NCBI GenBank assembly: GCA_018266075.1 | Contig: JAFEBB010000055.1 | Span: 1 to 48,733 of the forward strand | Reading direction: 5' to 3' | Source: Deltaproteobacteria bacterium | GTDB taxonomy: Bacteria > Myxococcota > Myxococcia > Myxococcales > SZAS-1 | DNA length: 48,733 nucleotides | Made by a program: the position numbers and the translations under genes | The notes under the pieces: model-generated | Database searches by the model: none | Seen by the model: only the letters and a program-made list of their open reading frames with translations | What the model was told of the DNA's origin: nothing | In this document: positions 42,608-42,778 of the stretch, piece by piece | Layout of the letters: each line of letters begins with the position of its first letter | Numbering within the stretch: position 1 is the first letter of the stretch

Positions 42608-42778
42608 ATGCGCCGCGCCAAGCCGGCAAACAGCCGTGGGTGGAAGACCTGCTCCCGCGGCCACAAGTATCGCGTGCCCGGCGGCTGCCCGATTTGATGG
42701 AAGGGCAATCGACCCGGCGGGTCGATTCGAAAGAAACCGCGCCGCGCTACGGCTCCAAAGACTCGACGTGGCCCATGA
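42608..42778 (+). CDS. Mini zinc-knuckle protein with in-frame TGA at the last Cys position (candidate selenoprotein or interrupted gene)
   Basis: AGGGAG lies just upstream of ATG 42608. Codons 1-29 end ...[12 protein letters not shown], then R-V-P-G-G-C-P-I. Codon 30 is TGA (42695-42697), followed in frame by W-K-G-N-R-P-G-G and a Lys/Arg-rich tail to TGA 42776-42778, immediately abutting the convergent VTT gene stop at 42779. If read through, the product is 56 residues with C-P-I-x-W. From memory, related small basic proteins have T-C-x-x-G-H-x-Y ... C-P-x-C-W, so TGA sits exactly where Cys is expected. Eighteen bases after the TGA starts the apical loop (GGC) of a perfect nine-base-pair stem. 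It could be Sec-encoding, a nonsense mutation or a base-call error. Confidence 0.55.
42707..42727 (+). promoter_or_regulatory. Stem-loop downstream of the in-frame TGA (bacterial SECIS-like)
   Basis: AATCGACCC (42707-42715), GGC loop (42716-42718), GGGTCGATT (42719-42727): nine perfect pairs. The published bacterial SECIS model asks for a small apical loop with a G in its first two positions, 16-37 bases after the UGA; this gives G-G at 18 bases. There is no T-run on either strand, so it is not an intrinsic terminator. Confidence 0.5.

Follow-up and report, generated by a model that had tools for sequence, protein, structure and literature searches.

The window analysed here, a 48,733-nucleotide stretch of bacterial DNA from a draft genome assembly (7.84 Mb, 166 contigs, 97% complete), contains a mini-gene in which 29 codons, the last three encoding C-P-I, run into a TGA and are followed by 26 further open codons and a second TGA. 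Is the first TGA decoded as selenocysteine (Sec), or does it simply end a short or decaying gene? Comparison with other genomes favours, with a probability of roughly 0.88, an intact gene encoding a 56-residue selenoprotein. On this reading, the ribosome would decode the first UGA as Sec, which would be delivered by SelB and tRNA-Sec under the direction of a downstream hairpin, and translation would end at the second UGA. The mechanism of insertion is the known one, and we infer that Sec is actually inserted at this codon. An earlier sequence-only reading of the same DNA had proposed a candidate new selenoprotein here, a proposal that has gained support from the Sec machinery of the genome, from Cys-containing relatives and from three more genomes that combine the TGA with the stem.

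Layout of the mini-gene and its neighbours

The gene layout given in the sequence-only reading, with a ribosome-binding site, 29 and 26 codons on either side of the first TGA and a terminal TGA abutting a convergent stop, is borne out by the sequence (Table 1). The mini-gene starts at an ATG, and the convergent neighbour encodes a VTT-domain membrane protein of 228 residues. The tRNA-fMet noted upstream is indeed a tRNA-Met with initiator features read from its sequence, namely C1 × A72 and a GGG/CCC anticodon stem. The strong hairpin lying between this tRNA and the mini-gene received no terminator call in a terminator scan; it may either separate or link the transcripts of the two genes. The 56-residue chain holds 18 Lys or Arg residues and no Asp or Glu.

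Table 1. Features of the mini-gene locus, in coordinates of the window.
Feature	Position	Strand	Basis
tRNA-Met (CAT), initiator type; upstream neighbour, outside the putative selenoprotein gene	42480..42554	+	ARAGORN
GC-rich strong hairpin without T tract, in the interval between tRNA and mini-gene	42559..42588	+	Read from sequence
GGGAG, ribosome-binding-site-like, 5 nt 5′ of ATG	42598..42602	+	Sequence
Putative selenoprotein mini-gene, 56 residues then TGA stop	42608..42778	+	Translation with TGA as U; homologues
In-frame TGA, putative Sec, residue 30, C-P-I-U motif	42695..42697	+	TGA in 4 genomes, Cys in 8 homologues
Candidate bacterial SECIS-type hairpin, nine pairs, 18 nt from UGA to loop	42707..42727	+	Sequence, folding, comparison
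Second TGA, terminating, adjoins end (42779) of convergent VTT-domain gene	42776..42778	+	

The same layout could be left by an ordinary stop in a Cys-containing zinc-knuckle gene that has been truncated or is dying, with a peptide of at most 29 residues as its product. In favour of this view, the ORF is extremely short and a scan revealed no promoter-like site for it. A run of 26 open codons is unremarkable for GC-rich DNA. It is the homologues and the hairpin, set out below, that make this explanation very unlikely.

Homologues with TGA at the same codon

Three further copies came to light among 99 genomes from the order and 195 from the phylum. All three belong to the same order (G019, G035 and G026, with profile E-values of 1.6e-21, 6.1e-19 and 1.9e-12, respectively), and each has a single TGA at the same codon. 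Across the four genomes this codon is always TGA and never TAA or TAG, which is not the pattern expected of an ordinary stop. Similarly, three of the nine codons that follow the TGA differ between the window's genome (G000) and G019, all of them synonymously, which also argues against a dying copy. The G026 copy, on the other hand, carries a frameshift upstream of the TGA relative to the other copies, as a decaying gene might. The three additional copies sit on short contigs (5–20 kb), so binning errors are possible for them.

The recurrence of the TGA bears equally on the proposal that a sequencing or assembly error at 42695–42697 has obscured a true Cys codon. A single-base change would suffice to turn a Cys codon into TGA, and the window is but one contig of a 166-contig draft; three other genomes, each assembled independently, nevertheless have TGA at this codon as well, which makes such an error barely conceivable.

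In G019 (L018/L080, 214–600), no stop separates the TGA gene from a 96-residue ORF in the same frame (MKRFEFTATV...), which belongs to no Pfam family, so this gene may be a fusion. A set of weak matches from the homologue search (L021–L028) look like chance.

Homologues with Cys

Eight homologues carry TGC or TGT at the position of the window's TGA, within the motif CP[TVYIKM]CW. They come from Kaiserbacteria (two), Hyphomicrobiaceae, Chitinophagaceae (two), a Parcubacteria bacterium, an unannotated ORF on a Porphyrobacter plasmid and one genome of the phylum of the Chloroflexi bacterium, this last being the one further Cys form among 400 genomes of that phylum. Among 398 genomes of the phylum of the Hyphomicrobiaceae bacterium, the search returned the known Cys form alone, together with two weak matches taken as chance. 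The full motif of the relatives is C-x3-H-x7-C-P-x-C-W, and the TGA of the window falls exactly on its last Cys; the C-P-x-C-W relatives mentioned in the sequence-only reading, with TGA replacing Cys, are confirmed at codon 30. Protein similarity crosses the TGA, with UWKGNRP aligning to CWKGN, CWKGH and CWKGF in homologues from other phyla. The sequence beyond the codon (C/U-W-K-G-N...) is therefore preserved and not decayed, which again weighs against an ordinary stop.

A pattern allowing three residues between Y-R and C-P-x-C found Cys homologues whose loop is one residue shorter than that of the TGA forms, which have a four-residue spacing. Because this pattern cannot find TGA forms with the longer spacing, there may be more TGA forms outside the order than were counted, and that count is a minimum. 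SelB was above its cut-off in none of the six Cys-form genomes checked (Kaiserbacteria, Hyphomicrobiaceae, Chitinophagaceae and Parcubacteria), and the genes neighbouring the Cys forms share no common context. No homologue was found in viral contigs by profile search or in a search of phages; a pattern with corrected spacing, applied to the viral contigs, returned an HNH protein and otherwise chance matches.

A covarying SECIS-type hairpin

Bacterial SECIS elements are modelled as a stem-loop with G in the first two loop positions, located 16–37 nt after the UGA (PMC13188914). Applied with a minimum free energy of −7.5 or lower, a G in the first two loop positions and this same distance range, the model describes the hairpins of the TGA genes, with one base bulged in G026. 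In the window, residues 42707–42715 pair with 42719–42727 around the loop GGC (42716–42718). The nine pairs, the GGC loop and the 18-nt distance of the stem-loop reported in the sequence-only reading have all stood; taken alone, however, the hairpin is weak evidence, because 36% of the TGA triplets in the window, which is GC-rich, are followed by a sequence that satisfies the general model. A strict form (loop GG[U/C], 17–22 nt after TGA), whose loop and distance class was set post hoc once the four hairpins were known, occurs after 0.4–0.9% of the window's TGAs and in 0.6–4% of the sequences obtained by recoding these genes synonymously. Shuffle z-scores of the single hairpins are modest, at −0.2 to −1.9.

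The weight of the evidence lies in recurrence across four genomes with covarying stems, and not in any single hairpin. The four TGA genes have loops GGC, GGU, GGUCG and GGC at 18, 18, 19 and 21 nt after the UGA, so that the stem, whose conservation the sequence-only reading had named as a check, is present in three more genomes. Six of seven pairs are changed on both sides (pairs 2–7 from the loop), with standard pairing (G-C, C-G, A-U or G-U) maintained throughout in all four genes, even though just 9 of 30 bases in the hairpin region are identical between G000 and G035. Such covariation would not be expected downstream of an ordinary stop.

Folding of the individual RNAs gave some competing structures. 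For the naked RNA of G035, a competing fold comes out slightly more stable than the hairpin (−19.6 vs −17.8); this fold needs the bases directly 3′ of the UGA, which would be covered by a ribosome paused there. Folds of 30–40 nt in G019 give the hairpin as the minimum-energy structure, whereas one longer fold window prefers another. A comparable hairpin is absent from seven of the eight Cys genes. Downstream of its Cys codon, the Hyphomicrobiaceae gene (L040) has a weak hairpin (−7.0) with the loop GGUGU at a distance of 18 nt, which may have been left over from a Sec-containing ancestor.

Selenocysteine machinery

The sequence-only reading had pointed to selA, selB, selC and selD as the genes to look for in the same genome, and all four are present above curated cut-offs. 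The tRNA-Sec is canonical, with a full-length model match (71.8 bits against a gathering score of 47); SelB scores 300 bits (cut-off 242), SelA 558 bits (cut-off 268) and SelD 385 bits (cut-off 125), the last without an in-frame stop. SelA was also found in all three of G019, G035 and G026, but its presence in all four TGA genomes is not discriminating because 86 of the 99 genomes of the order have SelA above cut-off. The SelD genes of G019, G035 and G026 (L070, L071 and L072) provide a positive control: each has its own in-frame TGA at the active-site codon (GUACK), and Sec is therefore evidently decoded in these genomes. In the window's genome, no second, known selenoprotein was found in the surroundings of selA, selB and selC, to which the search was confined, and a scan of GC content at codon positions around these genes gave no clear candidate for other selenoproteins.

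These findings also bear on how a UGA that is not a stop would be read. Some bacteria use unusual UGA-reading tRNAs, and read-through by a near-cognate tRNA (Trp), or by a recoded tRNA that adds Cys or some other amino acid, would likewise yield a full-length product. The genome nevertheless holds a canonical tRNA-Sec together with SelA, SelB and SelD, SelD carries Sec at a known position in three of the genomes, and the hairpin agrees with the published SECIS model (PMC13188914), all of which render read-through without Sec highly improbable.

Comparison with known families

The mini-gene, read as a Sec-containing gene, very probably represents a new family of bacterial selenoproteins that are very small and very basic, as judged by sequence comparison. 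The family is absent from the most complete catalogue found, which lists 119 prokaryotic selenoprotein families (PMC13188914). Correspondingly, profiles from NCBIfam release 20 (June 2026) and Pfam gave no family above cut-off for the mini-gene protein, and no such family was found in full-text searches of openly accessible papers. The mini-gene is likely to escape gene callers and Sec predictors because its frame is cut to 29 codons. Its inclusion would give the bacterial selenoproteome a family of unusual size and type: 56 residues, ribbon-like and without an acidic residue.

FmdB-family proteins are small zinc ribbons. The catalogue includes a U-x-x-U form of the FmdB-family regulatory protein (TIGR02605; PMC13188914), which offers a precedent for Sec in place of Cys in a small zinc ribbon. 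Unlike that family, the mini-gene protein has the motif C-x3-H-x7-C-P-x-U-W and gives no match to TIGR02605. Bacterial selenoproteins with C-x-x-U motifs include GrdA, SelW-like, AhpD-like and DUF1858 proteins, among others (Table 1 of PMC13188914). The mini-gene shares with these an in-frame UGA, the exchange of Cys for Sec in C-x-x-C, a SECIS-type hairpin within 16–37 nt and a genome encoding SelA, SelB and tRNA-Sec, whereas its product has no acidic residue and is too short for a thioredoxin fold.

Over residues 10–33, both the TGA form and most Cys forms show a weak match to the N-terminal part of PRK07758/NF005841 (E 0.01–0.02). The score of 15.6 bits lies below the family cut-off (115), and the mini-gene lacks the C-terminal part of that family. 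A search of 193 relatives with NF005841 was set aside, its matches being mainly to the C-terminal stretch inside long ORFs, which are probably RpoA.

Putative fold and function

Residues H19, C27 and C/U30 are invariant, and C15 is conserved except for a Gly in the Porphyrobacter copy; together, these four residues could form a CHCC metal site. A nucleic-acid-associated zinc ribbon is suggested by the basic chain, the CHCC residues, an HNH endonuclease with the ribbon motif and the weak likeness to PRK07758. Tentatively, the product may be pictured as an RNA- or DNA-binding protein with a small zinc-ribbon or zinc-knuckle fold (C15-x3-H19-x7-C27-x2-U30), in which Sec30 would either bind the metal or, paired with Cys27, serve as a redox switch (C-P-I-U). 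It is rather doubtful, though conceivable, that Sec at a metal-ligand position of this tiny basic knuckle lets selenium switch RNA or DNA binding, the protein being no thioredoxin-type enzyme. The AlphaFold model is weak (pLDDT 64, two short strands) and unfit for a fold search, and a PDB profile search returned very weak ribbon and RING matches only.

The mini-gene would provide a very small test object for the question of why a putative metal-ligand position should favour Sec rather than Cys, and the natural Cys counterparts in other phyla allow the Sec and Cys forms to be compared. A Cys form of the motif also occurs in another setting, as an N-terminal C-x3-H...C-P-x-C ribbon in an HNH endonuclease ORF on a viral contig (L063, reverse complement 10501–10947). 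This ribbon motif is shared with the mini-gene, whereas in the viral ORF it is fused to an HNH nuclease domain, the kinship being drawn from the short motif only.
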